Positions 7,079 to 41,345 of a DNA stretch of 64,000 nucleotides are shown in pieces. The stretch spans positions 2,376,501-2,440,500 of the forward strand of contig NZ_CP027806.1 in assembly GCF_003353065.1 (NCBI RefSeq). The letters are read 5' to 3'. The notes beneath the pieces were generated by a model. That model had not been told where the DNA came from and made no database searches. It was given only the letters and a program-made list of their open reading frames with translations. The DNA comes from Cyclonatronum proteinivorum. Lineage in GTDB: Bacteria > Bacteroidota > Rhodothermia > Balneolales > Cyclonatronaceae. A program made the translations under genes and the position numbers. How positions within the stretch are numbered: position 1 is the stretch's first letter; every line of letters starts with the position of its first letter.

Positions 7079-7771
7079 CTAATCGTTCTGGAAAGGAATC
7101 ATTTGGGTTAGAAGGCCCTTCAGATCGCCAAACTTATCCAGGTAATCTGTCTGACTTCTTCTGATGACTTCGAAAGCTTCATCACGATCGTAGGTGTGTG
7201 TTATTTCACAAGTTGTTTTATCCGACTCACCAGGAATCTGTTTGTATGTCAGGAAGTAGTGACGTAACCGGTCTACAACAATGGGCGGGATATCATTAAT
7301 ACTGCGGTAATTGCCATAAACCAGATCGCCCTTCATTACAGCGATGATTTTGTCATCGGCTTCGTTGCCGTCAATCATTCTGAAACCCCCGATAGGGATG
7401 GCCTGCAGCAAAATGTTGCCGTGCGTAATTTGTTTCTCTGATAAGATACAGATATCGAGCGGGTCGCTGTCACCTTCTACATCTATGCCGCTTTTCTCTT
7501 TACAAAATTCAGCGGTGGAATCGCCACAGTATGTTTGTGGTACAAAGCCGTAAAGCGCAGGGCAAACGTTGGAATAACGCTGCGGACGGTCAACTTTGAG
7601 AAATCCGGTATCTTTATCCACCTCATATTTAATTGTATCCGTGGGGACAATCTCAATAAAAGTAGTAACTACTTCCGGTGCCTTATCACCAATCATTACG
7701 CCATGCCAGGGATGTGATTTAAGAAGGAGACCAAGGAGTTTCCACATTTCTTCGGATGACTGAATACTCAT
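7079..7771 (-). CDS. ppa: Inorganic pyrophosphatase, family I
   Basis: A soluble Mg-dependent enzyme that hydrolyses PPi to two phosphates and pulls biosynthetic reactions forward. The 230-residue protein carries the family I elements: a FIEIVPTDTIKYEVD strand, RPQRYSN, YGFVPQTYCGD, and the metal-binding GDSDPLDICIL motif (consensus D-G-D-P-x-D-x-x-x-L). A C-terminal region follows with KTTCEITHTYDRDEAFEVI. It is longer than the ~175-aa E. coli enzyme because of an N-terminal extension (WKLLGLLLKSHPWHG). It heads a minus-strand run with the SDR and aminotransferase. Confidence 0.94.
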   Translation of the reverse strand: MSIQSSEEMWKLLGLLLKSHPWHGVMIGDKAPEVVTTFIEIVPTDTIKYEVDKDTGFLKVDRPQRYSNVCPALYGFVPQTYCGDSTAEFCKEKSGIDVEGDSDPLDICILSEKQITHGNILLQAIPIGGFRMIDGNEADDKIIAVMKGDLVYGNYRSINDIPPIVVDRLRHYFLTYKQIPGESDKTTCEITHTYDRDEAFEVIRRSQTDYLDKFGDLKGLLTQMIPFQND

Positions 7772-7848
7772 AGTTTGGTTTGTATGTTAGATGAATAATT
7801 GCTGTTGCTCAGTAAAAGTAATAATTGTGAACAGCCAAAGTAAGCAAT

Positions 7849-9504
7849 TCAGATATAAGATATGTGATGGAACCTGATTTTTTGCAGGGTATCCTCGCTC
7901 AGGTGATTCAAAAAGTCGTCAAGCAATGTATCGCCATACATACTGTAGTAATACGCCCAGCCAACGGTTCGCTCCTGCAACACACCTGACGGAAACAGTG
8001 CTTCTTTGACTTTAAGAATTCGTTTCTGCGCAACTTTTTCTTTTTTCTTTTTCTCCCGCATTACCTTGGCGATAAACTGTTCGGCAGCATTTTCTGCCCT
8101 TTTCAGGCTGCTGTTTAATGAGGTCTCCAGACTGCTGTCCGGTTCCGCGTAGCCTTCAAAAAATTGTCTGTAAAGTTTTTCATGTTCCGCTTTCCATTTT
8201 TCCAATGCCCTCACCGGAGACGCAAGCCCATCCTTAGATAGTGACATTAACACGACTGACTTAAGCAATTCTTCTTCACGTTTTTTATAGGATAAGAGAG
8301 GAAACGGCATGCCAGCCATCGTTTTACAGATGTTTTGCTCAACTACAGTTGTGCTGAATCGCGGCAACAAAACAGGTAAATCAAGTCCAAAACATCTAAA
8401 GAAAGTCTTGAGCTGCCCATGGTATGCAAGCTCAGCGGCACCCCCGGCATAAGCTATATTGGGTAACAGGTATTGCTGCACTACGGGTCTTAGCAATGCA
8501 TTGGGAGACAACCTTGCGAAGAAGGAATCGGGCAGGTTTTGTACTGTTTCTTCGGTAAACAACTCTGATTCATGTCTCCCGGGCAACTTCCACCCTGTTG
8601 CCGAAAACGGGATTTTGATGCGTCCCATTGCGGGATCATGATAGAATAGAAGGCTGTCTGTGACCGCGACCTGCGCTTTCCAGTTTTGAGCAAGTTTGGC
8701 TGATGTAAGTTCCAGCTCATCACGCAATACCACCGGATTCGTCAATACCTTTTCAAAAACCGGTCTGCACAACTGTTTTACTTTAGGATGATTGCTACCG
8801 GCAAGCACGAGACCAAATCTCCCGAAAACCTGCATCATCTGCGCTCCAAAAGCTTTCACCCAGGGTTTTCCGCTTTGCCAGCTGTCATGCAATTTTTCAA
8901 GAGATTCCGCATAAGCTGAGCCCTTGTTGCTTGCTTCCCCGATTTCAGAAAGTAAGCGTTCAGCTTCTTCATTGACTTTTATATCACCAGCTGCAAAAGG
9001 GAGATCACCAAGGCTTCGGAAAGAAAACTTGCGGTTTGATTGGTTTGCCTTGAAATCCGGTAGATATATATGGTTGATTTCATCGTGATCATGATCTTCA
9101 TCTGCAATCCAGAAAACAGGGACAATATTCAGATCGGCCTTTTCTTTCAGGTAACGGCTAAGCGCAATTACCGTGAGTGTTTTATAGAAACTGTAAGCCG
9201 GGCCGCCCAGGAAGCATGCTTGTTGTCCCGTTACAATAGTATAGCTGTTTGGGCTTTGAAGCGATTGAATGGATTCAATGGTAGACTTACCTGCCGTAAA
9301 ACCCTGATTATATTCAAGGAGGAACTGAACCAGATTTTCCCGGCTTACCTTACCGAACCGTTTGGCCGTAAATGATTGAAAAGAAGAATAGTCAAAAGGG
9401 TTTTCCGGGTCGTAGAAGCTTTGCAGTGCTTTCTGACCTTCAACATAATCCGTCAGGAGGGCTGAAGCGCCAAGCTCCCGGTAGCTTACAGCCTCAAACT
9501 CCAA
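7849..9504 (-). CDS. bshC: Putative cysteine ligase BshC (bacillithiol biosynthesis)
   Basis: BshC is thought to add cysteine to glucosaminyl-malate in the last step of bacillithiol synthesis. The 551 residues match the family in length and motifs: an N-terminal LTDYVEGQKALQSFY segment, the nucleotide-binding-like TIVTGQQACFLGGPAYSFYKT, VPVFWIADEDHDHDEIN, and YAGGAAELAYHGQLK, followed by a lysine-rich coiled-coil region (EKKKKEKVAQKR) and a C-terminal tail. It starts 2 bases after the stop of the bifunctional-nuclease gene, so the two are a likely operon. bshA and bshB are not in the window. Confidence 0.94.
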   Translation of the reverse strand: MEFEAVSYRELGASALLTDYVEGQKALQSFYDPENPFDYSSFQSFTAKRFGKVSRENLVQFLLEYNQGFTAGKSTIESIQSLQSPNSYTIVTGQQACFLGGPAYSFYKTLTVIALSRYLKEKADLNIVPVFWIADEDHDHDEINHIYLPDFKANQSNRKFSFRSLGDLPFAAGDIKVNEEAERLLSEIGEASNKGSAYAESLEKLHDSWQSGKPWVKAFGAQMMQVFGRFGLVLAGSNHPKVKQLCRPVFEKVLTNPVVLRDELELTSAKLAQNWKAQVAVTDSLLFYHDPAMGRIKIPFSATGWKLPGRHESELFTEETVQNLPDSFFARLSPNALLRPVVQQYLLPNIAYAGGAAELAYHGQLKTFFRCFGLDLPVLLPRFSTTVVEQNICKTMAGMPFPLLSYKKREEELLKSVVLMSLSKDGLASPVRALEKWKAEHEKLYRQFFEGYAEPDSSLETSLNSSLKRAENAAEQFIAKVMREKKKKEKVAQKRILKVKEALFPSGVLQERTVGWAYYYSMYGDTLLDDFLNHLSEDTLQKIRFHHISYI

Positions 9505-29031: not shown

Positions 29032-31614
29032 ATGTCAGACCGCACCCCAACAGCTTATGATGCTTTACCTATGGCATACGGCCGTTTTTTTATCCGGAAT
29101 GCAGGTTCTGACGTACTTCTTACGCAATCTTACAATAAAGCTTTTGAAAAGCTTTTTGGCCTTGATGAATCCTCAATTACGAAGAACCAGTCGCTTGAAT
29201 CACTGTCAGCCCGTAGAAATATTGACCTTGGTCCGCTCGTAGCATTTATCAGGCGCAATCCTGAAAGAGACATTTCCGAACAGCTTACGTTACATTTCAA
29301 AGCCGAAGAAGGCACAATCATTAATACGTGCACACTTCATGCATGGATTGACACTGAAAATTTTCTGCACGTCTTTTTTCAGGATGAAATATCCCGGTTG
29401 CTACAGCTTTTTGAGGAGCCTCCAAAAGAGGTACCTGTGTCCCCAAAAAATCATGCAGAACATCAGCATTATGACGCGCCCGCAGAAAATCAGCCCTGCA
29501 GCTATATATATGCGGCACCCTTCGGAACTTTTGTGACGGATGAAAAAGGCCGGTACCTCGATGTGAATCCGGCGGCCTGCGAACTCACGGGATATACAGC
29601 CGAAGAACTCCTTCAGATGCGTATCACGGACGTGATTTCAACTGCCAATGCAGATGAAGCACTCGCTTTTCACCGGCAGCTTACGCAAACCGGAAAGCTT
29701 ACAGGCGAGTTTTTACTTCTTCGTAAAAACGGCAGCAGCATTTGGTGTCAGCTTTCGGCCGTCAAATTATCTGAAGACCGTTTCCTGGGTTTTCAGTCCG
29801 ACATTTCCAGACAAAAGCAGGCGGAAACCGAACTCAAGCGTGAACGCCGCATTCTTGCTGAAATCGTAGACGGTACCAAAGCTGGTACCTGGCGCTGGAA
29901 CCTGGAGACCGGTGATTCAATGGTTAATGACCGTTGGGGCAGCATATTAGGCTATGAGTCCGGCGAGATTACTCATCTGACTCTCGATGGCTGGCTTGCC
30001 TTCCTTCACCCTGAAGACACTGAAAGAACGATGAAATCACTCGATAAGGTCATTCAGGGTGAACTTGACATTTATGAGTGCGAAGTCAGAATGAAGCACA
30101 AGCTGGGGCATTGGATATGGATTTATGACCGGGGCTCTGTTACTGAGTTCTCCCCCGACGGAAATCCGCTTATGATTTCAGGGATTCAATTGGATATTAC
30201 GGCACGAAAAGAAGCCAAGCAAAAACTGGAAAAAAGCGAGCGCCGTTTCAGAATACTGTTTGACAATCACACAGCCGTAAAACTGATTATTGACCCTGAT
30301 ACCGGTCAAATAGTAGATGCGAACAAAGCCGCTTCCGCATATTACGGGTGGTCACATGAAGCGCTCACAAACATGCGCATTAACGATATTAATACACTGA
30401 GCGATAAGGACATCAAGTCACAATTGAACAATGCAGCCACGCACTTAGAAAGTAATTATCAGTTCAAACACCGGAAAGCGGATGGAAGCATAAGGGATGT
30501 AGAGGTTTACAGTAGTATTATACAGCTTGAAGATAAGAAGCTGATCCACTCCATTATACACGATAACACAGCTCGTTTTGAAGCTGAGCTGAAGCTGAAA
30601 CGAGAACAAAAGTTTAATGCTGCCCTTCTGGAAAGTGCGCAGGATGGTATTGTAGCCTGCGATGAAAAAGGCAATCTAAAGTTGTTTAACAAAGTCGCGA
30701 GGTCATGGCACCAAAGCGATCCGGACAACTCAGCGTCTGCGGGCTGGAGTAATTCCTATGGCCTTTTTGATGGAGAAGGCAAAAAACAATTAACAGAACA
30801 GGATATTCCGTTGGTAAGGGCCTTTAGGGGCGAACGCTTCATTAGTGTACCCATCACCATCAAAACCAAAGGCTTACCCACACGCCTTGTAGCAGCAAGT
30901 GGTTCTCCGTTCACAGACGAGCATGGTAAAAAATTGGGCGCAGTGGTAATTATGCGGGATGTAACCGAACAAAGACAGCTTGAATCACAAGTTAGCCTTC
31001 AGCTTGCTGCCCTTAAGTCAGCGGCCAACGCCATCGCAATTACCGACCGGGACGGAAATCTTGAGTGGATAAATCCCGCCTGGGAAAAACTCACGGGATA
31101 CGCCGAACAGGAAGTGTTAAGTCAAAACCCGCGAATTCTAAAGTCAGGACAGCAAAAGAAGGAATATTATACCTTACTTTGGGAAACCATCTTAGCGGGA
31201 AAAACCTGGAAAGGAGAAATAGTTAACAGAAGAAAAGACGGCTCACTTTATAATGAGTATCAGACCATTACTCCGCTAAAAAATAAAGAAGGCAAAATCA
31301 CCCACTTTATAGCAATAAAGGAAGATATTACAGCCCAAAAAGAGTTTGAAAAAAAACTACTTGCTCAAAATGAAACGCTGAAACGAATAGCCTGGCATCA
31401 GAGCCATGTTGTGCGGCGTCCGGTTGCAAATATTATGGGCTTAATCGACTTAATTGAAGAAGAAAAAAACATTACTGAAAATCAGCTTTCAGCCATTGAG
31501 TACCTCAAAGAAGAGATTCTAAAGCTTGATGAAATTGTCAGGAAAATTGTGCGTGAGGCAAATCACATTACCAGCGGCAAATTTGATATAGATGTGAAAA
31601 AGAATCACGACTAA
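29032..31614 (+). CDS. Six-PAS sensor protein ending in a DHp-like helix, no ATPase domain
   Basis: An 860-residue cytoplasmic multi-sensor protein without TM segments. I count six PAS-type modules: a divergent one (~8-125), then ~155-270 (TDEKGRYLDVNPAACELTGY), ~280-400 (PAS_3-like, WRWNLETGD...HPEDTE), ~405-525 (RRFRILFDNH), ~530-655 (GIVACDEKGNLKLFN) and ~660-785 (AITDRDGNLEWINPAWEKLTGY). The last ~75 residues form a helical hairpin with IAWHQSHVVRRPVANIMGLI, where His792 sits like an H-box histidine. The protein stops there: no N, G1 or G2 boxes. It is convergent with the adjacent REC-kinase gene (25-base gap). It may be a phosphotransfer or scaffolding partner; that is inference. Confidence 0.85.
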   Translation: MSDRTPTAYDALPMAYGRFFIRNAGSDVLLTQSYNKAFEKLFGLDESSITKNQSLESLSARRNIDLGPLVAFIRRNPERDISEQLTLHFKAEEGTIINTCTLHAWIDTENFLHVFFQDEISRLLQLFEEPPKEVPVSPKNHAEHQHYDAPAENQPCSYIYAAPFGTFVTDEKGRYLDVNPAACELTGYTAEELLQMRITDVISTANADEALAFHRQLTQTGKLTGEFLLLRKNGSSIWCQLSAVKLSEDRFLGFQSDISRQKQAETELKRERRILAEIVDGTKAGTWRWNLETGDSMVNDRWGSILGYESGEITHLTLDGWLAFLHPEDTERTMKSLDKVIQGELDIYECEVRMKHKLGHWIWIYDRGSVTEFSPDGNPLMISGIQLDITARKEAKQKLEKSERRFRILFDNHTAVKLIIDPDTGQIVDANKAASAYYGWSHEALTNMRINDINTLSDKDIKSQLNNAATHLESNYQFKHRKADGSIRDVEVYSSIIQLEDKKLIHSIIHDNTARFEAELKLKREQKFNAALLESAQDGIVACDEKGNLKLFNKVARSWHQSDPDNSASAGWSNSYGLFDGEGKKQLTEQDIPLVRAFRGERFISVPITIKTKGLPTRLVAASGSPFTDEHGKKLGAVVIMRDVTEQRQLESQVSLQLAALKSAANAIAITDRDGNLEWINPAWEKLTGYAEQEVLSQNPRILKSGQQKKEYYTLLWETILAGKTWKGEIVNRRKDGSLYNEYQTITPLKNKEGKITHFIAIKEDITAQKEFEKKLLAQNETLKRIAWHQSHVVRRPVANIMGLIDLIEEEKNITENQLSAIEYLKEEILKLDEIVRKIVREANHITSGKFDIDVKKNHD

Positions 31615-31638: not shown

Positions 31639-32892
31639 TCAAATGGAAAAATAAAAGGTTGTCCCCTGCCCCGGCTTTGAGTCGAACCATATCTGACCAC
31701 CATGCCGGTCAACAATCCTTTTTACAGTACTTAGGCCTACTCCGGTGCCGTCATACTGCGTCTGATCATGCAGACGTATAAAAGGACGGAATAAATTATC
31801 GGCCTTATCCATATCGAATCCCGTACCATTGTCTTTCACAAAGAAAACCGTTTGACCGTCAGATTCTTCATGTCCGATATGAATGTGAGGATTTTCTTTG
31901 TTTTGGCTGTATTTTAGGCTGTTTTCGATCAGGTTGTTCATTAAAACCCGAAACAGCTTGGGGTCTGCATTGATTTTCATACCTTCATCAATAGTAATTT
32001 CACAGTCATGCCTGTACGTCAGGTTGGTGAGGTCAGCTACTATATTCTTAACCATTTCCGTCAGATCAATTTCGTGCGGGCTGATCTCCAGACTTCCCGA
32101 ACGGGAAAAACTCAGGAGGTCATTGATCAGCTGTTGCATGTTTTGGGAAGAGTGCAGAATGGCTTCGAGGAACGGAAAAGCTTCTTTGTCAAGGCTTGTT
32201 GCAAAGTCTTCCATCAGTAGTTCTACAAGCCCTATAATGCCGCTAAGCGGGGAACGCAGATCATGTGAAACGGTGCGGGTGAAAGCTTCAAGCTCCTGAT
32301 TAGCTTCCTTCAAATCTTCGTTGAGTTTCTCAAGTCGCCGCTGCGTATTTATCAGCTCTTCATTACGGCTAATGGCGGCTTCATAAACCGACAACAGTAA
32401 ATCCAGAATCTGTTTTTTATCTGAGTTGATTTCAAACTTCTGGTTTTGAAAAACGATTTCAATGCTCATATCACCTGAGCCCATCCGCCTTACATGCCGG
32501 TTGGCTATCAGGTAAGAAATGCGGGACATCAGGTAGGATTCTTCATAGGGCTTTGTGATAAAATTATCCGCACCCGCCTGTAGTCCCCGGATGATATCCA
32601 TCGGGTCACCCAGTGAGGTTAGTAGAATAAAGGGAACATCTGTTATAGACGGTTCTGATTTAACTTTACTGCAAAACTCATAACCATCCATAACAGGCAT
32701 CATCACGTCACTGATAATGAGCTCAGGCTTTTCCTTCTTTGCCTGCTCCAATGCATCCTGTCCGTTTTTGCAGACAACGGCTTTGATGTTACGGGTATCA
32801 AAAAAACGCTTCAGTTTTTTGGCCTGCACCATAGAATCTTCCGCAAGGAGCACATATCCGTCAGCAAACGTCTGATCAACAAAGTAATTCAT
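31639..32892 (-). CDS. Response regulator-histidine kinase fusion (REC-HisKA-HATPase)
   Basis: A 417-residue cytoplasmic protein. The N-terminal REC domain (14-130) has the acidic pocket LLAEDS, phospho-acceptor Asp62 in ISDVMMPVMDGYEF and the FITKPY lysine. A linker helix (NEELINTQRRLEKLNEDLKE) leads to HisKA with His210 in TVSHDLRSPLSGIIGLVELL. The HATPase domain shows NLIENSLKYS, DNGTGFD and GTGVGLSTVKRI. It starts at ATG 32892, 12 bases after the cheB stop, and is the terminal gene of the che operon: the position that wspR occupies in Wsp. It probably takes phosphoryl groups from the CheA homologue, and its own kinase domain would relay onward. Confidence 0.92.
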   Translation of the reverse strand: MNYFVDQTFADGYVLLAEDSMVQAKKLKRFFDTRNIKAVVCKNGQDALEQAKKEKPELIISDVMMPVMDGYEFCSKVKSEPSITDVPFILLTSLGDPMDIIRGLQAGADNFITKPYEESYLMSRISYLIANRHVRRMGSGDMSIEIVFQNQKFEINSDKKQILDLLLSVYEAAISRNEELINTQRRLEKLNEDLKEANQELEAFTRTVSHDLRSPLSGIIGLVELLMEDFATSLDKEAFPFLEAILHSSQNMQQLINDLLSFSRSGSLEISPHEIDLTEMVKNIVADLTNLTYRHDCEITIDEGMKINADPKLFRVLMNNLIENSLKYSQNKENPHIHIGHEESDGQTVFFVKDNGTGFDMDKADNLFRPFIRLHDQTQYDGTGVGLSTVKRIVDRHGGQIWFDSKPGQGTTFYFSI

Positions 32893-32904
32893 GGGTGACA
32901 ATAT

Positions 32905-33993
32905 TTAAAGTTTTTGTAATTCCAGAATTTTTTGGGCAATGCGTTCAGGCGGGTAAACCATCTGCGCCCCGCCATTTTTTACGGCCGCTCCCGGCATCCC
33001 AAATACGAGACTGCTCGCTTCATCCTGAGCCAGTGTTGTAGCGCCGCAGTTTTTCAGGGCAAGCATTTCTTCTGCGCCATCATCGCCCATACCGGAAAGC
33101 AAAACCGCCACGGTTTGATTTCCGAAAAATGCTTTGGCACTTTTAAACAGCTGACTCACAGATGGCTTGTGTCCTTTATAGGCAGGCTCATCTGTCAAAA
33201 TTAAGTGTGCACTGTTCTTAAAGGACAGATGCTTCCCGCCGGGGGCAAGATAGACGTGCGCAGGCTGAAGCTGCATCCCGTCTTTAGCGAGTACAACCGG
33301 AATCAAAGAATGCGTCTGAAGCCATTCCCTGAAGGTTTCAGAAAAGTTTTCATCAATATGCTGAACAACAACAACCGGAAATTTGAAGGATGAATCAAAT
33401 GAATTTAGTATGATTCGCAGGGCTTCCGGTCCGCCGGCTGACGCGCCGATTACAACGATTCTTTTTTGCGACTGCCAAACAGCTGGCCCTGCCTTTGACG
33501 CTTGAACGTCGTAAGCTCTTTTATCCGAAGCCATCGGCGGCTGCGAACCTTTTGTTCGTCGTCTTACAACCCTGACTTCCGACATATTTTTAAGCATGCG
33601 CAGATAGCGTTCTGAAGATCGCGCGTACTGATCATGGCCCGGACCAAGAGGTTTGGGCATGATGTGTACTGCCCCCGCGGCCATTGCCTGAATGGCCAGC
33701 TCCTTCTGTGTAGCGTCATAGAGGCTGCTTACAATTACGATAGGTACCGGTGCGTGCTGCATAATCAGCCGGGTAGCTTCGATGCCGTCCATATCGGGCA
33801 TCTGAACATCCATGCTCACGACATCAGGTTCCAGATTGCGGATCATCTCTATGGCCGCTTTCCCGTTAGACGCCATCCCGGCAACTTCAAACCTCGGGTC
33901 TGACGCAAGTATGCGTTCATGCAGCCGCCTGCTCGTGAAACTGTCATCTACAATCAGTACCCGAATCCGGGCTGTTGTGCCGCTTGCGCTCAT
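32905..33993 (-). CDS. cheB: Chemotaxis-type protein-glutamate methylesterase
   Basis: Removes methyl groups from receptor glutamates (and deamidates glutamines) when phosphorylated. The 362 residues begin with a REC domain (11-130), phospho-acceptor Asp62 in VSMDVQMPDMDGIEA. A linker follows, then the esterase domain with the catalytic triad Ser185 (IGASAGGPEA), His212 (VVVVQHIDENF) and Asp305 (LSGMGDDGAEEM). Residues match canonical CheB. It lies 5 bases downstream of the CheA homologue and upstream of the REC-kinase gene. Confidence 0.95.
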   Translation of the reverse strand: MSASGTTARIRVLIVDDSFTSRRLHERILASDPRFEVAGMASNGKAAIEMIRNLEPDVVSMDVQMPDMDGIEATRLIMQHAPVPIVIVSSLYDATQKELAIQAMAAGAVHIMPKPLGPGHDQYARSSERYLRMLKNMSEVRVVRRRTKGSQPPMASDKRAYDVQASKAGPAVWQSQKRIVVIGASAGGPEALRIILNSFDSSFKFPVVVVQHIDENFSETFREWLQTHSLIPVVLAKDGMQLQPAHVYLAPGGKHLSFKNSAHLILTDEPAYKGHKPSVSQLFKSAKAFFGNQTVAVLLSGMGDDGAEEMLALKNCGATTLAQDEASSLVFGMPGAAVKNGGAQMVYPPERIAQKILELQKL

Positions 33994-33998
33994 GCTGT

Positions 33999-36491
33999 CT
34001 AAACCAGACGTTTAATGGTATCTATAAGGTTGGTTTCCTGAAAATTGCTTTTTACAATATACGCATTTGCTCCGGCTTGCATACCCCTGTTTCGGTCTTC
34101 CGGTGTTTCCAGGGCCGTTACCACAATCACAGGTAAATCACGCAGGCTTGCCTGTTTACGAATGCGTGAAGTTAGCTCAAATCCGTTCATGCGGGGCATT
34201 TCCACATCGGTAACCACAATATCGAAAGGATGCTGTAACAGCTTTTCAAAAGCATTCTGACCGTCGAATGCCGTTGCTACTTCATACCCGGCCATCTCCA
34301 GATACGTCCGCATCATATTACGAATGGTGATGGAATCATCCACAGCCAGCACCCTGATTTTGCCGGCCGGTTCATCTTCCAGCGCGGCAACCGATCGGGT
34401 ATGATGATGCTTTGATTCCGCGGCTGATGCGATCAGGTCGGATGGTTTAAGTACAGGCACAATGCGACCGTCCCCCAAAAAACAGGCGCCTTCTACATGC
34501 TTTACTTTCCTGAGTAACTTACCCAGCGGCTTTACAATCCCTTCGTGCTCAGCAAGAATAGCATCAACCGTAAAAACAACCTTTTTTCCCTGATGTTCGA
34601 GCAATAAGCCGGTTACCAGATCACCATCGCGGCTGCGCTGTGCACTCCGAAGGCCCAGTACGGAACTAAGCTGCAGCATCGCAATACTTTCCCCGTGTAC
34701 CGTCACAACACGCTTAGATTCTACCGTACTGATTGCAGCGGCTTCCACACGAATAGCCCGCCGGACAGCCTGCGCCGGAATCAGAAAAAGCTGTGTTCCT
34801 GATTCAACGAGAATGCCGTGAAATGTAGCCAGGGTTTGCGGCAGTTTGATCGTAAAACGGATCCCCTTCCCGGTTTCATTTGTAACCGCTATGGTACCGC
34901 CAAGGCTCGTAATTTTTTCAAGTACGATAGCCATTCCTAATCCACGCCCCGAGACATCCGTAATGATTTTGCTTGTTGTGAGACCGGATGCAAAAATAAG
35001 GCGGTTAATTTCGGACGTACTCAGTTTCCCTGCCCCTTCCCGGTTAAGTGCACCGGATTTAATTGCAGACGCGACCACTTTTTTATGATCAATGCCGGCT
35101 CCGTCATCTTCTATCACAATGCTGATTTTGCGGTCATCGCCCTGCGTTACGGCAACCCGCAGGCTGCCTTCATCGGGTTTTCCGGCTTTTCGCCGGACTT
35201 CCGGTGTTTCAATGCCATGATCAATACAGTTCCGGATAAGATGGATCAGAGGATCTTTAAGCTGTTCCAAAATCCGGCGGTCAATTTCAATATCAGCGCC
35301 GTCAAGATGAATGGCTACTTTTTTGCCGGTACTTTTGGAAAGATCGCGCACCAAACGGGGCACGACAGCAAACAACACCGAAAACGGCTGCAGGAGCGTA
35401 TCCCGCACGGCTTCAATCAACTCATCTATATTCCGTCCGGACCTGCGCTGCAGGGCATGCATCTCATCCGCAAGATGTGTTAAGCGGCTGTCCCATATGC
35501 CGAATTCCTGCGATATATCTTTAAGTTCAGCGGCTATTTTTTGCTCAGCCGATTGGGTGTTCGCGGGCAGTACTTCATCAAGTTTACCCCTGAGCCCGGC
35601 AAGCTGCTGTGCCTGATCTGCAAGGGCTTCGGACTGATAACGCAATACATTTTTACTGGTAATCATTTCTTCGGCAAGATTGAGAATACCCAATAAACGG
35701 GCTACCGGCACCCGGATAGTTTCATGCTCAATACCCCCCTGCTTACCGCCTTTTGAAGAAATCTGTCCTACAGCATCACCTTCGTCCGGCATCCCTTTCT
35801 CACCTTCCGTATCTGACCCGTGTGCTATTCGTTCATCGGGTTCCGGCTCCGCCGTTTTGGTTGTTTCTGCATCATCAACAGATCCGGACCTGCTCTCAGC
35901 CGCTTCGCTTCGCGGATTTGGCTCAGAATCTGCAGACGTCTCTTGCGCTTTCGCTGCCGTCTGTGTTTTGTGAATCGGTTGACCTTTTGCATTGCCTTTA
36001 TTTTGATCTGTACGGGTATCTGTTGGTTGCAGCTTCTCCGGTGTTTTTTGTGAGGGGGAAGTTTTTGAGACGGAAGCTTTATGCAGACCTTTAATTTTAC
36101 CGAGCATCAGGTTGAAGGCATTTTGAGAAACCGTTTCCTGGCCTTTGCTACTGCCTGTTTCTTTCACCAGATCCTGAAGCATATCTGCGGCGGGATACAG
36201 CACGTCAAACATGTCTTCGTGCAGCCGGAGCTTATGGTTCTTTATTTCATGAAACACGCCCTCCATAACCATAGCAAGCTGCTCCAGCCTAAGAAGGTTA
36301 ACCGCCCGTGCAGCGCCTTTCATGCTGTGAATGACCCTAAACACCTCCTCAATTTTGGCCCGGTCCCCGCCGTCGCCGACAGATTTCTCCAGGGCCAGCA
36401 AACCGTCGCCTATGGTTTGAAGGTGCTCAGCGGCTTCCAGCTTAAAATCTTCCAGAAGCTCTTTTAAAAAAGCTTCATCTGAGCTGTCCAT
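33999..36491 (-). CDS. cheA: Hybrid chemotaxis histidine kinase CheA-REC
   Basis: An 830-residue kinase from the ATG at 36491 (MDSSDEAFLKEL). Order: HPt P1 (1-110) with His55 in FRVIHSMKGAARA; a ~110-residue low-complexity Thr/Lys/Gln/Glu/Ser linker replacing P2; dimerisation helices (~230-330); HATPase (N-box LIRNCIDHGIETPEVRRKAG, IEDDGAGID, GRGLGMAIV); CheW-like regulatory domain; and a C-terminal REC domain with VLAVDDSITIRN and acceptor Asp in VVTDVEMPRMNG. The fused receiver is typical of WspE and FrzE rather than flagellar CheA. An upstream in-frame start at 36539 would overlap the MCP gene. Confidence 0.95.
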   Translation of the reverse strand: MDSSDEAFLKELLEDFKLEAAEHLQTIGDGLLALEKSVGDGGDRAKIEEVFRVIHSMKGAARAVNLLRLEQLAMVMEGVFHEIKNHKLRLHEDMFDVLYPAADMLQDLVKETGSSKGQETVSQNAFNLMLGKIKGLHKASVSKTSPSQKTPEKLQPTDTRTDQNKGNAKGQPIHKTQTAAKAQETSADSEPNPRSEAAESRSGSVDDAETTKTAEPEPDERIAHGSDTEGEKGMPDEGDAVGQISSKGGKQGGIEHETIRVPVARLLGILNLAEEMITSKNVLRYQSEALADQAQQLAGLRGKLDEVLPANTQSAEQKIAAELKDISQEFGIWDSRLTHLADEMHALQRRSGRNIDELIEAVRDTLLQPFSVLFAVVPRLVRDLSKSTGKKVAIHLDGADIEIDRRILEQLKDPLIHLIRNCIDHGIETPEVRRKAGKPDEGSLRVAVTQGDDRKISIVIEDDGAGIDHKKVVASAIKSGALNREGAGKLSTSEINRLIFASGLTTSKIITDVSGRGLGMAIVLEKITSLGGTIAVTNETGKGIRFTIKLPQTLATFHGILVESGTQLFLIPAQAVRRAIRVEAAAISTVESKRVVTVHGESIAMLQLSSVLGLRSAQRSRDGDLVTGLLLEHQGKKVVFTVDAILAEHEGIVKPLGKLLRKVKHVEGACFLGDGRIVPVLKPSDLIASAAESKHHHTRSVAALEDEPAGKIRVLAVDDSITIRNMMRTYLEMAGYEVATAFDGQNAFEKLLQHPFDIVVTDVEMPRMNGFELTSRIRKQASLRDLPVIVVTALETPEDRNRGMQAGANAYIVKSNFQETNLIDTIKRLV

Positions 36492-36495
36492 AGGA

Positions 36496-37986
36496 TCAGA
36501 GTTTATATTTTTCGATGGTTTGTTCCAGGTTCTGAGCAAGCTCGTTGAGTTCCTGAATGGCCTGCCGCGTCTGATGGCTGCCGGTCACGTTTTGGTCGCT
36601 TGCTACCCTAATGTTTTCCATAGCCGGAGCTATCTGTTCCATACCCGCAAGCTGCTGCTGACTTGACGACGCAATCTGAATGGAAGCATCGAGGGCTTCA
36701 TCAATACTCTCTATGAGCGCTTCCAGTATTTTTCGTTCCTGAAGGACCGTCTGTGTGCCTTCCTCAACCGTGCTTGAACCGGTTCTGATGGCTTCGGCCG
36801 TGTCAGAAACGGACTTCTGAATATCATTGAGGATGGTTTTGATTTGCGCCGCTGATTTTTTGGACTGTTCCGCAAGGCTCTTAATTTCCTGCGCTACTAC
36901 GGAAAAGCCCTTGCCATGCTCGCCCGCTTTGGCAGCTTCGATGGAGGCGTTAACCCCAAGTAAATTCGACTGATCTGCAATGTCAGAAACAGTTGTTGTT
37001 ATTTCTCCGATGGAGCGGTTTTGCTCAGACAGCCGTGTAATGGCTTTTTCTACCACCTTCATCTGCTGATCAATTTTGGCCATGCCATCCACCACAATAC
37101 GGGAAGCTTCAAGGCCTTCATCACCCATTGAAGCCGATTTCTGAGAGGTCTCCTGAAGATTTTGTGCACGGTCACTGGCTACTGAAGCGGTTTGCCTCAC
37201 CTCTTCAACAGTGGATGTTGTTTCAGCGATGGCGGTTGCCGTCTCGGTTGCTCCGGTCGAGATTTCTGTGACTGTTGTTTGAATTTCGGCGGCTGATGTT
37301 CCTAAAACCTGAATGCTTGTTTTAAGCTCAGCCGTGATTCGGCCCATGGTCCGGTACAAGAACCAAACTGAAACAGCGGTTAGGCCGATAAGCACGAATG
37401 CAGCAATAAGCATGGCAAATCCGCTGGCTGCTTTTTGAAGATCGGCCGTTTCCCGTAGTTCTTCACGGCTTTCAAAAATGGCATCCTGCAGCACTAAAAT
37501 GGCGGCATAGACCTGCTCATAGATGCGGAAGTCTTCGTCCTGAAAAGCATCTATTGCAGCACCGGTACCTATTGTAACGGTACGCAGGTGCTGATTGCTT
37601 TGTCTGTATTCGTCGAGCATTGTGTTGAGCAAGGGGATAAGCTGTTCTATCTCATCTGTGGCCGCGATACCATTTTGCGCGCGTGCCCGCAAACTGCGAA
37701 CCGCTACTTCCAGGCGCTCAATCAGCCGCTCGCTCTCGGCCACTTTTTGTTCGCGCTCTGCTGTCGAAACCAAAGCTTCAAACTGAAGGATAAATATGCG
37801 GGAATTCAGGTCTGAAATGCGGCTTGTTTCATCAAAAAGTTCCGTCATCTCATCCAGCTCGTCTGCCAGGTTGCTTAGGGTGCGCAGATTGCTGTTCAGG
37901 TATAGAAAAACCAAAACAAATACGCCAACAAGTAAAGCGCCTGCGGTGATGATTTTTCCGGTGAAAGATAAGTTAGAAGCATTCAT
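36496..37986 (-). CDS. Methyl-accepting chemotaxis protein without HAMP
   Basis: A 496-residue transmembrane receptor. TM1 spans ~12-30, a four-helix-bundle periplasmic region ~31-188 (many Glu/Arg heptads), TM2 ~190-210. The chain then passes after [18 protein letters not shown] directly into the signalling hairpin; no HAMP (with its Pro and DExG) is seen. Methylation helices ([21 protein letters not shown]) flank the conserved tip [24 protein letters not shown]. There is no CheR-binding pentapeptide at the C-terminus (EQTIEKYKL). It sits between cheW and cheA and should be the array's main receptor. Confidence 0.92.
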
Positions 37987-38019
37987 AAGCGATCAATAGA
38001 TAAAGGTTGAAGGATTGGT

Positions 38020-38541
38020 TCAGGCATCCACTATGAGGCGTCGGCTGTTCAGGAGCGCTTCGCCGTCGAGCAATATCGTTTGAGGGCCTGCCATGCCCTT
38101 GATGAATTCAAGTCCGAGCTTACTCAGACTTGCCGGAGGCTCCTGAATTTCATCCTGAAGGATGAATCCGGATTCGAGAATACGGTCACAAAGCAAGCCA
38201 AATTCCATATTATCATTGCGAAGCAACAGAACTTTGTTCATCTCCGTGAGGCCGGCTTCGCGTATCCCCAGAAGTTTTTTCAGATTCACAACCGGAACTA
38301 TAGTGCTGCGATAGTTCATCACGCCCAACACGAATTCGGGCGTACCCGGTATAACCGTGAGATCACGCAGCGAGAACACTTCGTGGACAGAAGCTACAGG
38401 AATAGCGAAAGTTTCCGGATAGAGTAAAAACCGGATCACAGCCAGCTGCTCGCCCCGCTCTTCCTGAGCAAGCGGCACGGAAAATGCCTTCGCCCGCTTT
38501 TTAAGAAGCATTAGTTCCTGTGATACATCCATATACTTCAT
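38020..38541 (-). CDS. cheW: CheW-like coupling protein (second copy)
   Basis: A 173-residue adaptor linking MCP tips to CheA. The CheW fold is seen as AVIRFLLYPETFAIPVASVHEVFSLRDLTVIPGTPEFVLGVMNYRSTIVPVVNLKKLLG (given here as the region at residues ~30-90), with the NYR motif in place of the usual NLRG. The C-terminus EALLNSRRLIVDA resembles regulatory CheW domains. It lies between cheR and the MCP gene, so one copy could serve CheA and the other a distinct receptor pool. Confidence 0.9.
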   Translation of the reverse strand: MKYMDVSQELMLLKKRAKAFSVPLAQEERGEQLAVIRFLLYPETFAIPVASVHEVFSLRDLTVIPGTPEFVLGVMNYRSTIVPVVNLKKLLGIREAGLTEMNKVLLLRNDNMEFGLLCDRILESGFILQDEIQEPPASLSKLGLEFIKGMAGPQTILLDGEALLNSRRLIVDA

Positions 38542-38565
38542 TCAAATAAGTTGGTAAAAATCAAA

Positions 38566-40101
38566 TCAGCCTAATTCCTGCGCAATCATTTGCCGGAGCG
38601 TGCCAACACGCATATCATCTGTGCCCGGAACATGCTCTGTGTCCGCTTTTCCTACAATCAGATCTGATATGCGCTTTAATGACTTGCGGCTCTGAGCCGT
38701 TTTTCCAAGCTTTCGCAGCAAGCTGTGTCGCACAAAAAGTGCACCAATATCATCAGGATTAAGATAAAGCACTTTAACCAGCTGTGCATCTGCTTCTTCT
38801 GTCTTTTCCTGTTCGCTCAGTATGTCCGCTAAAAGCCTGATACTTCCAATATCTTCCGAGTGTTGTTCCAGATAAGCTTTAAGGCGGCTTTCAGCTTCCT
38901 GATAACTGCCGGTATTTGCCAGCGAACGCACAAATAAATTGGTGATTACCGGCGATTGCTGTTGCGCTGCTGGTAACTGCCGCACAGCCGCTATGCAGGC
39001 TTCATAATTCCCCAAGCGGAACTGCCCGCGAACGTGATCTTCGGCATGACTTACGTTCAGCGGAGTTTCCGGCTTTGTTTTCTTTTCCGAAATGTCTTTT
39101 TGAGCATCTGATCGTACCCTTTCCGGCCGCAGACGCGGTCTAACCGGACTTTCGCTTTTGTGATTGGCTTTTGATGTACTTGTATGTTTTACCACACGTG
39201 GCTTCACCGCCTGCGAAGCGGGTTTTGCGGATACAGACAGCGAGACAGGCTTTACATTCATTTTCTGATAAAACAGTCCCGAATGATACTGTACCCGGAC
39301 AAAGCGCGAAAAATAGAATTCATTCAACTCAACCTGACTCGTCACAAACCATCCCTGATCCTTCAAAGCTTCCCAGAAGCGTCCGGCCACTTTTTCAATC
39401 AGATCAGCACTGAAGTACATCATCACATTCCGACAAAAAATCAGATCAAAAGAAGCGGGTGAAGGCACCGCATTGTAAAAATCGTCCGTAACCAGGTTGA
39501 CCTGTCTGAACGTAACCATGCGCTTGATTTCTGGTGAAACAGCCCACCAATCGCCCTTTTGATGAAAAAACTTTTCTTTCAAGTGTGCGGGCGTATCCCT
39601 GAAAGACCACGGCCTGTACACGCCCAGGCGCGCCTTATCGAGCGCTGCGGGATTCAAATCAGTGGCTAAAATGCTGATATCCCAATCGTTAGCATCAGAC
39701 AGGGTTTCTTTCAGCGTAATGGCAATCGAATAAGGCTCTTCCCCTGTGCTGCATCCCGCACTCCAGATCCGCAGCCGCTTTTGGCCTGAAGTTAAACCTC
39801 GCGAAACAGCGGCTATCACCTTGTCCGTTAACAAAGCAAAAGCGGCTTTTTCCCGAAAAAAGTAGGTCTCGCCTACCGTCAGGTTTTTAGTTAAGGCATT
39901 AAATTCAGCCTGTGAAAGCTTTTCCCTGGAAACCCACTGGCTGATTTCAGTCAGATCACTGCTGCGCCTGAGTTCAGTAGCCGCTCTTTTGAGATAGTTT
40001 TCCAGACTTTTCCATTGCTGCGGTTTAAAAGAAAGCCCAAAATGCCGGTGCACATGTGCCGCAAGATCTGCCCTGATTTGCTCATAATCTCCATCTTCCA
40101 C
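38566..40101 (-). CDS. cheR: CheR-type methyltransferase with C-terminal TPR-like repeats
   Basis: An S-adenosylmethionine-dependent receptor methyltransferase. Residues ~1-75 are the N-terminal helical domain, then TVGETYFFREKAAF, the SAM motif RIWSAGCSTGEEPYSIA, TDLNPAALDKARLGVY, and FDLIFCRNVMMYFS are the CheR hallmarks. After ~280 comes a Lys/Ser/Pro-rich linker and ~130 residues of TPR-like helices (AEDHVRGQFRLGNYEACIAAVR, EADAQLVKVLYLNPDDIGALF). The GTG at 40101 is 1 base beyond the cheW stop; a TTG at 40137 would overlap cheW by 35 bases. The TPR tail is what WspC and FrzF-type CheRs carry. Confidence 0.93.
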   Translation of the reverse strand: MEDGDYEQIRADLAAHVHRHFGLSFKPQQWKSLENYLKRAATELRRSSDLTEISQWVSREKLSQAEFNALTKNLTVGETYFFREKAAFALLTDKVIAAVSRGLTSGQKRLRIWSAGCSTGEEPYSIAITLKETLSDANDWDISILATDLNPAALDKARLGVYRPWSFRDTPAHLKEKFFHQKGDWWAVSPEIKRMVTFRQVNLVTDDFYNAVPSPASFDLIFCRNVMMYFSADLIEKVAGRFWEALKDQGWFVTSQVELNEFYFSRFVRVQYHSGLFYQKMNVKPVSLSVSAKPASQAVKPRVVKHTSTSKANHKSESPVRPRLRPERVRSDAQKDISEKKTKPETPLNVSHAEDHVRGQFRLGNYEACIAAVRQLPAAQQQSPVITNLFVRSLANTGSYQEAESRLKAYLEQHSEDIGSIRLLADILSEQEKTEEADAQLVKVLYLNPDDIGALFVRHSLLRKLGKTAQSRKSLKRISDLIVGKADTEHVPGTDDMRVGTLRQMIAQELG

Positions 40102-40102
40102 A

Positions 40103-40609
40103 TCACACCCCCTGCACTTTATCCGTAAGGCCGTCAAGCCATACCATAAGTTTTCGGGTCAAAAGCTGTGACACCCGGTAGGCCAAAATGATTCCATCCT
40201 TGTCACCGAAAACCTGTGCCTGCGTTTCCGATTCCATTTTCTGAACTGCAGATGTCTCATCGGATGAACCAAACTTACCGGGCTTTGTCAGCGATTCAGC
40301 GTCAACGAGACCTTCGGCTTCATCAGCCAACAGTCCAAGCCGGATATCTTCCGTAAGATGTACGATTACAATGACATCATCAGCTTGCAGGGGACGTTTG
40401 TTCAGACCCAGACGGCACCGAAGATTCAAAAGCGGCAAAAGATCCCCGTGAAAATCAAAATACCCTTCTATTTCCGGCGGCGAATCCGGAATGCGCGTTA
40501 CGTAAAGCGCCGGAATAATCTTGGCAACATCCCGAATCGGCACGGCAAAACGCCGGGAATCGGCTTTTAAAACAAAGTAATGTGAAGGAGAGTGGGAATC
40601 AGAACGCAT
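40103..40609 (-). CDS. cheW: CheW-like coupling protein (first copy)
   Basis: A 168-residue CheW-fold protein and the first gene of the operon. The ATG at 40609 (MRSDSHSPSHYFVLKADSRRF) begins at the domain edge; an upstream in-frame start at 40642 adds 11 unconserved residues. The RRFAVPIRDVAKIIPALYVTRIPDSP region is the first beta sheet and IEGYFDFHGDLLPLLNLRCRLGL the second, with DFHG at the usual N(L/Y)RG turn. Acidic residues near its end (LTEDIRLGLLADEAEGLVD) follow the family pattern. Confidence 0.88.
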   Translation of the reverse strand: MRSDSHSPSHYFVLKADSRRFAVPIRDVAKIIPALYVTRIPDSPPEIEGYFDFHGDLLPLLNLRCRLGLNKRPLQADDVIVIVHLTEDIRLGLLADEAEGLVDAESLTKPGKFGSSDETSAVQKMESETQAQVFGDKDGIILAYRVSQLLTRKLMVWLDGLTDKVQGV

Positions 40610-41015
40610 AAGCGGTAAATGGATACAGTCCGTAGTAAGCACAATACAACATCTGCAATCCTTAACTGATTGTCAATTGTTGGATATCAAATAATGTCAA
40701 AATTATAAGATACAACCAAGAATTATGAAAGTGCCTGCGATGTATTCCTTCAATAAACAACGCGACAAGATGTATTTAAAACATTCAGGCTTTACCTTAC
40801 AACAATTCAGTTATTAACGCTTTATGCATACTAAAAATTTGTGCGTATAAGTACTTTTGTAGTTAACTCACAGTCCCGAAAGTTGAGTTAAGTCCCTTTT
40901 TTATGGGGAAGAAAAAACTGTCATCACAAACAGATTACACAACGCTTTGCAGTCGTCAGTTGGGCTTGAAGTTTCCTGCACTTAGTCTCAACAAAAAAGA
41001 ATAGCGCCTTAAAAA
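40610..41015. other. Intergenic region, with inverted repeat at 40863-40891
   Basis: No gene is supported in these 406 bases between the che operon and the toxin gene; the DNA is visibly A+T-rich. An 8-bp inverted repeat, TTAACTCA (40863-40870) with TGAGTTAA (40884-40891), 13-base spacer, is followed by a T6 run 5 bases later on the plus strand. It could be an operator or a weak terminator; no plus-strand gene precedes it. The candidate che promoter also lies here. Confidence 0.45.
40698..40730 (-). promoter_or_regulatory. Candidate promoter of the che operon
   Basis: On the minus strand TAATTTTG (plus 40698-40705) fits the TAnnTTTG -7 element of Bacteroidota-type promoters. A TTTC lies 21 bases upstream near 40727-40730, one mismatch from TTTG. 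The pair is ~90 bases before the first cheW ATG. Spacing and the mismatch make this a weak call. Confidence 0.3.
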
Positions 41016-41345
41016 TTACAGGGCTAAATCGAACAGCTCAAGGAGTCTGAGATTGAGCTCCCGCATTTCGCGGGTGGAAAGGGTGCCCAAACGGCCCAGC
41101 ATAAAGGATTTCTCAATTGTGATGATTTTGTTGAGACGCACAACAGACCTGACCTTGAGCCCATTTCCCTTTTTGGGATGGAGAATCAGATCGCAGGGCT
41201 CCTGCTCTTCTGTGTTCGTACTAATGAAAGAGACAGTCACGGCTCCGTCATCTTCACTGAGAATGAGCGCCGGAACCAGCTTCATTTTATCGTCAGAGCG
41301 GTTCGGATATGAGAGCGGAATAAGTACAATATCTCCTTTAAACAT
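41016..41345 (-). CDS. PemK/MazF-family toxin-like protein
   Basis: A 109-residue protein matching the PemK/MazF fold in length and motifs. MFKGDIVLIPLSYPNRSDDK is the N-terminal strand and loop, LVPALILSEDDGAVTVSFIST the second block, and SVVRLNKIITIEKSFMLGRLG the third. MazF toxins are sequence-specific ribonucleases acting on mRNA, and they pair with an upstream antitoxin. The partner gene ends 3 bases before the start. The arginine of the GDIV-type active site area is not obvious (GD-IVLI with R17), so catalysis is likely but unproven. Confidence 0.82.
   Translation of the reverse strand: MFKGDIVLIPLSYPNRSDDKMKLVPALILSEDDGAVTVSFISTNTEEQEPCDLILHPKKGNGLKVRSVVRLNKIITIEKSFMLGRLGTLSTREMRELNLRLLELFDLAL

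Follow-up and report, generated by a model that had tools for sequence, protein, structure and literature searches.

Organization of the che operon

The analysed window, a 64,000-nucleotide stretch of the Cyclonatronum proteinivorum genome, contains seven che-type genes that lie almost without gaps on the minus strand between positions 31639 and 40642, as judged from the ORF list and Pfam matches. Their order is cheW, cheR-TPR, cheW, MCP, cheA-REC, cheB and REC-HisKA-HATPase, and neighbouring genes are separated by about 30 bases or less, or overlap slightly. A preliminary description of this DNA had proposed the same seven genes in the same order, with the MCP in fourth place, and this was confirmed by the ORFs and Pfam. 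The genes, together with the convergent gene adjoining them, are as follows.

40103–40609, minus strand: cheW, first coupling protein (CheW, 67.9 bits); a GTG at 40642 opens the ORF, with an ATG at 40609
38566–40137, minus strand: cheR-TPR methyltransferase (CheR, 168 bits; TPR_19, 30.8 bits, residues 410–463); a TTG at 40137 opens the ORF, and the GTG at 40101 is the likelier start
38020–38541, minus strand: cheW, second coupling protein (CheW, 93.9 bits)
36496–37986, minus strand: MCP chemoreceptor (MCPsignal, 113.8 bits), without HAMP
33999–36491, minus strand: cheA-REC (Pfam Hpt, HATPase_c, CheW and Response_reg); a TTG at 36539 opens the ORF
32905–33993, minus strand: cheB (Response_reg and CheB_methylest), exceeding the NCBIfam cut-offs for CheB subfamilies
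31639–32892, minus strand: REC-HisKA-HATPase kinase (Response_reg, HisKA and HATPase_c); a TTG at 32901 opens the ORF
29032–31614, plus strand: multi-PAS protein (Pfam PAS families) with a C-terminal DHp/HisKA-like hairpin, without HATPase

The ATG of cheA at 36491 lies immediately past the MCP stop codon. In CheA, the Hpt motif reads HSMKGA, that is, the catalytic residues are in place, and Pfam gave no match to P2. Inspection of the MCP sequence shows two hydrophobic segments, at approximately residues 12–30 and 188–211. Two earlier statements, that the receptor lacks HAMP and that the output is REC-HisKA-HATPase and not REC-GGDEF, agree with the Pfam matches listed above. A small ORF upstream of the operon (41016–41345, minus strand) resembles MazF/PemK-type toxins by eye.

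The host genome is a single contig of 4.29 Mb, reported to be 99% complete. The MCP signalling domain had one match in the whole genome, that of the operon, and all three CheW-domain ORFs of the genome lie within the operon, which is the sole chemosensory system found. The preliminary description had noted no flagellar genes within the window; for FlhA (PF00771), which had no match, this holds for the whole genome. Receiver domains were matched 53 times in the genome. No GGDEF domain was found by Pfam in either the operon or the genome, and the genome therefore cannot supply a WspR-type c-di-GMP output, which supports the earlier proposal that the output is not a c-di-GMP signal of that kind.

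Conservation of the output kinase

We searched for relatives of the output kinase and obtained 21 loci with a clear relative (L005–L024 and L041; 35–77% identity). The kinase gene directly followed cheB in all 21, with cheA also preceding, and the full seven-gene order was kept in 11; the others lose genes or end at a contig edge. Because the same gene order recurs across Bacteroidota, the arrangement is far beyond chance. The operon is a real and complete chemotaxis-like signalling system.

To counter the bias of a kinase-led scan, we also sampled loci blindly with respect to the kinase, by running the CheA query against 395 genomes of the phylum. Of the 13 closest loci examined (L093–L105), 12 had a REC-kinase in the output place of the operon, with L103 and L105 assessed from how nearly identical they are to L102 and L104. 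The receiver gene followed cheB in these loci, except in L102 and L103, where it followed cheA, and some of the kinases carry an extra GAF, PAS or second REC. The regulator after cheB in L098 (7145–7840, minus strand) comprises REC and the conserved linker without the kinase part, and a permease-like gene comes next. More remote loci carry other outputs; for example, a more distant Bacteroidota che cluster (L108) is closed by a REC-SpoIIE gene, a phosphatase-type output (7719–8924, minus strand).

A motif search of the window and of 34 homologous loci recognized no GGDEF-type gene, and no two-component gene downstream of the operon was common to the relatives among the homologous loci. The preliminary description had considered that a REC-GGDEF gene might lie downstream in homologous loci, or that the kinase might be missing from most copies; neither was found, because the kinase is syntenic and the 34 loci were free of the motif. 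A hidden downstream REC-GGDEF output was accordingly rejected, with no Pfam match genome-wide. Orphan response regulators do occur in the genome. Given the synteny across Bacteroidota and Ignavibacteriota in both sets of loci, however, we rejected the reading that the REC-kinase stands beside the che genes by accident and that the true output is encoded elsewhere, and we regard this reading as extremely improbable.

Some variation among the relatives was also recorded. Two Bacteroidales operons, L009 (4162–5185) and L013 (4239–5242), have no cheR between the pair of cheW genes but keep cheB, and cheR was not found elsewhere in the DNA retrieved for them. The operon on the L020 contig, filed as an alphaproteobacterial MAG, hardly differs from that of L010, a Bacteroidales MAG, and the taxonomic label of the contig is probably a binning or labelling error. 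Plasmid-borne matches to the REC-kinase (L067 and L070) lie in surroundings without che genes.

Relationship to ACF and Wsp systems

The preliminary description regarded the output as one not known from any described system. However, approximately 40% of the response regulators in cheR-TPR clusters carry HisKA and HATPase domains (Munoz-Martinez et al. 2012, PMC3447774), and in Rhodospirillum centenum, CheA3 was shown biochemically to phosphorylate REC1 of the kinase CheS3 (PMC3868531). A REC-kinase output is therefore already described as very common in non-motility chemosensory systems, and the operon is an ordinary, well-conserved example of this design from a bacterial branch that has received little study. 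Multidomain response regulators are a distinctive mark of ACF pathways, in which phosphorylation of REC has been proposed to modulate the attached kinase (PMC3447774), and ACF systems tend to have a CheA with a C-terminal CheY-like domain and without P2 (PMC10782961). The operon combines the MCP, CheA and CheW core with a multidomain response regulator as output, CheR-TPR, and a CheA-REC without P2; CheR-TPR and the REC-HisKA-HATPase regulator are common to both. In contrast, Bacteroidota and Balneolota are absent from the phyla listed in PMC3447774, and the receptor in the window is without HAMP. From its parts, gene order, output and CheA tree, the operon is best read as an ACF-type pathway.

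We constructed a tree of CheA core sequences (52 rows, long branches removed), whose deep root is unsettled. The CheA of the window and its sister from Balneolales (L017) were nested in a Bacteroidales clade (8 rows, 99/93; 17 rows, 100/99), within a wider clade of 31 rows (100/99) that includes an alphaproteobacterial CheA from Niveispirillum (L066). The plasmid cluster L066 shares this CheA clade and has the order cheW-cheR-(210-aa ORF)-mcp-cheA-cheB, in which the 210-aa ORF occupies the place of the second cheW; however, it has no REC-kinase directly after cheB, and its MCP carries CHASE3 and HAMP. The receptors of the window, L017 and the five members tested from their Bacteroidales clade have no HAMP, whereas those of L021, L095, L101 and L066, the outer relatives tested, do.

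The tree also bears on the earlier description of the operon as Wsp-like, under which this would be a true Wsp system whose WspR had been swapped for a kinase. The core parts (two CheW, CheR-TPR, MCP, CheA-REC and CheB) are indeed common to both, and that list of parts is where the likeness to WspA–F and WspR ends. A genuine Wsp operon from Cupriavidus (L069) has its MCP first and ends in REC-GGDEF, whereas in the window the MCP is fourth and GGDEF is absent. The Cupriavidus CheA, the one Wsp CheA sampled, fell outside the 31-row clade and grouped with other CheAs (100/100), so the comparison of CheA trees that had been suggested places the two in separate, well-supported clades. A topology uniting the window, L017 and Wsp was rejected (p-AU 8e-58), although this test is weak because the constrained tree also breaks the close Bacteroidales kinship. 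Since output, gene order and CheA clade are all unlike, we rejected Wsp membership, which we consider very unlikely.

A close kinase was found in 2 of 245 genomes of the class. This rarity and the position in the CheA tree suggest horizontal transfer from a Bacteroidales-like donor into one Balneolales lineage; alternatively, differential loss may explain the pattern. What is modestly new here is that the design is clearly conserved in Bacteroidota, Ignavibacteriota and one Balneolales lineage, all outside the phyla listed in PMC3447774, and, again modestly, that the receptor has lost HAMP. The REC-kinase output, already known from Proteobacteria and other groups, is thus a stable family with conserved synteny in Bacteroidota and their relatives.

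Proposed signal flow

A published analogue with demonstrated phosphotransfer is the Che3 system of R. centenum, in which CheY3 is phosphorylated by CheS3 and not by CheA3 (PMC3868531). Both clusters encode two CheW, CheR, CheB, one MCP, a CheA with a C-terminal REC, and a second kinase with an N-terminal receiver. However, CheS3 has two receivers followed by PAS and a kinase module of the HWE type (REC-REC-PAS-HWE), whereas the kinase in the window has one REC and a different kinase module, HisKA. In addition, the CheY3 gene lies in the che3 cluster, whereas the operon in the window has no CheY gene and no response regulator gene downstream of the kinase.

With this analogue and the conserved place of the kinase in the operon, the earlier suggestion that CheA feeds a second kinase is plausible. 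We consider it likely that the operon encodes a pathway of the ACF type: CheA would phosphorylate the receiver of the kinase and so tune the activity of the kinase towards an unlinked response regulator, a reading backed by the phosphorylation of CheS3 REC1 by CheA3. The membrane receptor, acting through CheW, would control CheA autophosphorylation at the Hpt histidine, with receptor methylation set by CheR-TPR and CheB. Phosphate would then pass from CheA to D62 of the REC-kinase, and also to CheB and the C-terminal REC of CheA itself as feedback or a sink. The state of REC would be transmitted to HisKA and HATPase through a long helical linker, and the kinase would act on an unlinked response regulator as in the CheA3-CheS3-CheY3 pathway. 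The pathway probably controls transcription, development or a surface-related process, not swimming or c-di-GMP synthesis.

The kinase has 417 residues, numbered here from the ATG at 32892. In an alignment of 22 homologs, the receiver aspartate D62 and the HisKA histidine H210 were invariant, in line with the catalytic residues noted earlier, as were the ATP-binding residues N320, N324, D354, G356 and G358. A distinctive linker at approximately residues 144–180, around IEIVFQNQKFEINSDKKQILDLLLSVYEAAI, was also conserved in the 22 REC-kinases. The predicted structure comprises REC, a beta-hairpin, one continuous long helix leading into the DHp hairpin, and CA (mean pLDDT 77); because pTM is 0.48, the relative placement of the domains is uncertain, and the model does not bear on the specificity for partners.

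Histidine kinases are often bifunctional, and the protein might instead serve chiefly as a sink for phosphate or a modulator of the phosphatase type. The Myxococcus Che3 CheA homolog, described as a phosphatase on CrdA (as cited in PMC3868531), would be a precedent. However, the invariance of H210 and the ATP-binding residues argues for an active kinase, and we consider the sink or phosphatase role unlikely.

For the unlinked partner expected under the ACF-type pathway, we inspected 20 stretches around response regulators of the genome for kinase neighbours. Several response regulator genes had no detectable kinase neighbour within approximately 3 kb (for example, those at genome-contig positions 905772, 539681 and 2072804). 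The presence of such unpaired regulators across the genus singled out none of them as the cognate one, because the two genomes with the operon are also each other's nearest relatives. The version found here is minimal, with one receptor and one pathway and with neither flagellar FlhA nor GGDEF proteins, and the step from CheA to the kinase is testable free of cross-talk from other chemosensory systems.

Another reading is that the kinase signals through the convergent PAS protein, as a phosphate acceptor or a mixed-dimer partner. The C-terminal hairpin of this protein (AWHQSHVVRRPVANIMGL) is DHp-like and without a kinase domain, although its HisKA score of 23.7 bits is under the cut-off of 26.9. 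The gene adjoins the operon convergently in both operon-bearing Balneolales genomes, where the sister copy occupies the same position with 55% identity, and four congeners lacking the operon gave no match to it at E 1e-100. However, this co-occurrence is confounded and is not independent evidence of a link, because, within the genus, the two carriers (G000 and G095) appear to be each other's nearest relatives, with 81% identity, compared with approximately 49%, in one response regulator. Moreover, no such gene was found beside the Bacteroidales operons. The PAS protein is thus a possible candidate partner of the kinase, but signalling through it seems improbable. A relay from CheA through the REC-kinase to the DHp hairpin, by which sensory PAS domains would join downstream of the array in the Balneolales lineage, is a long shot.
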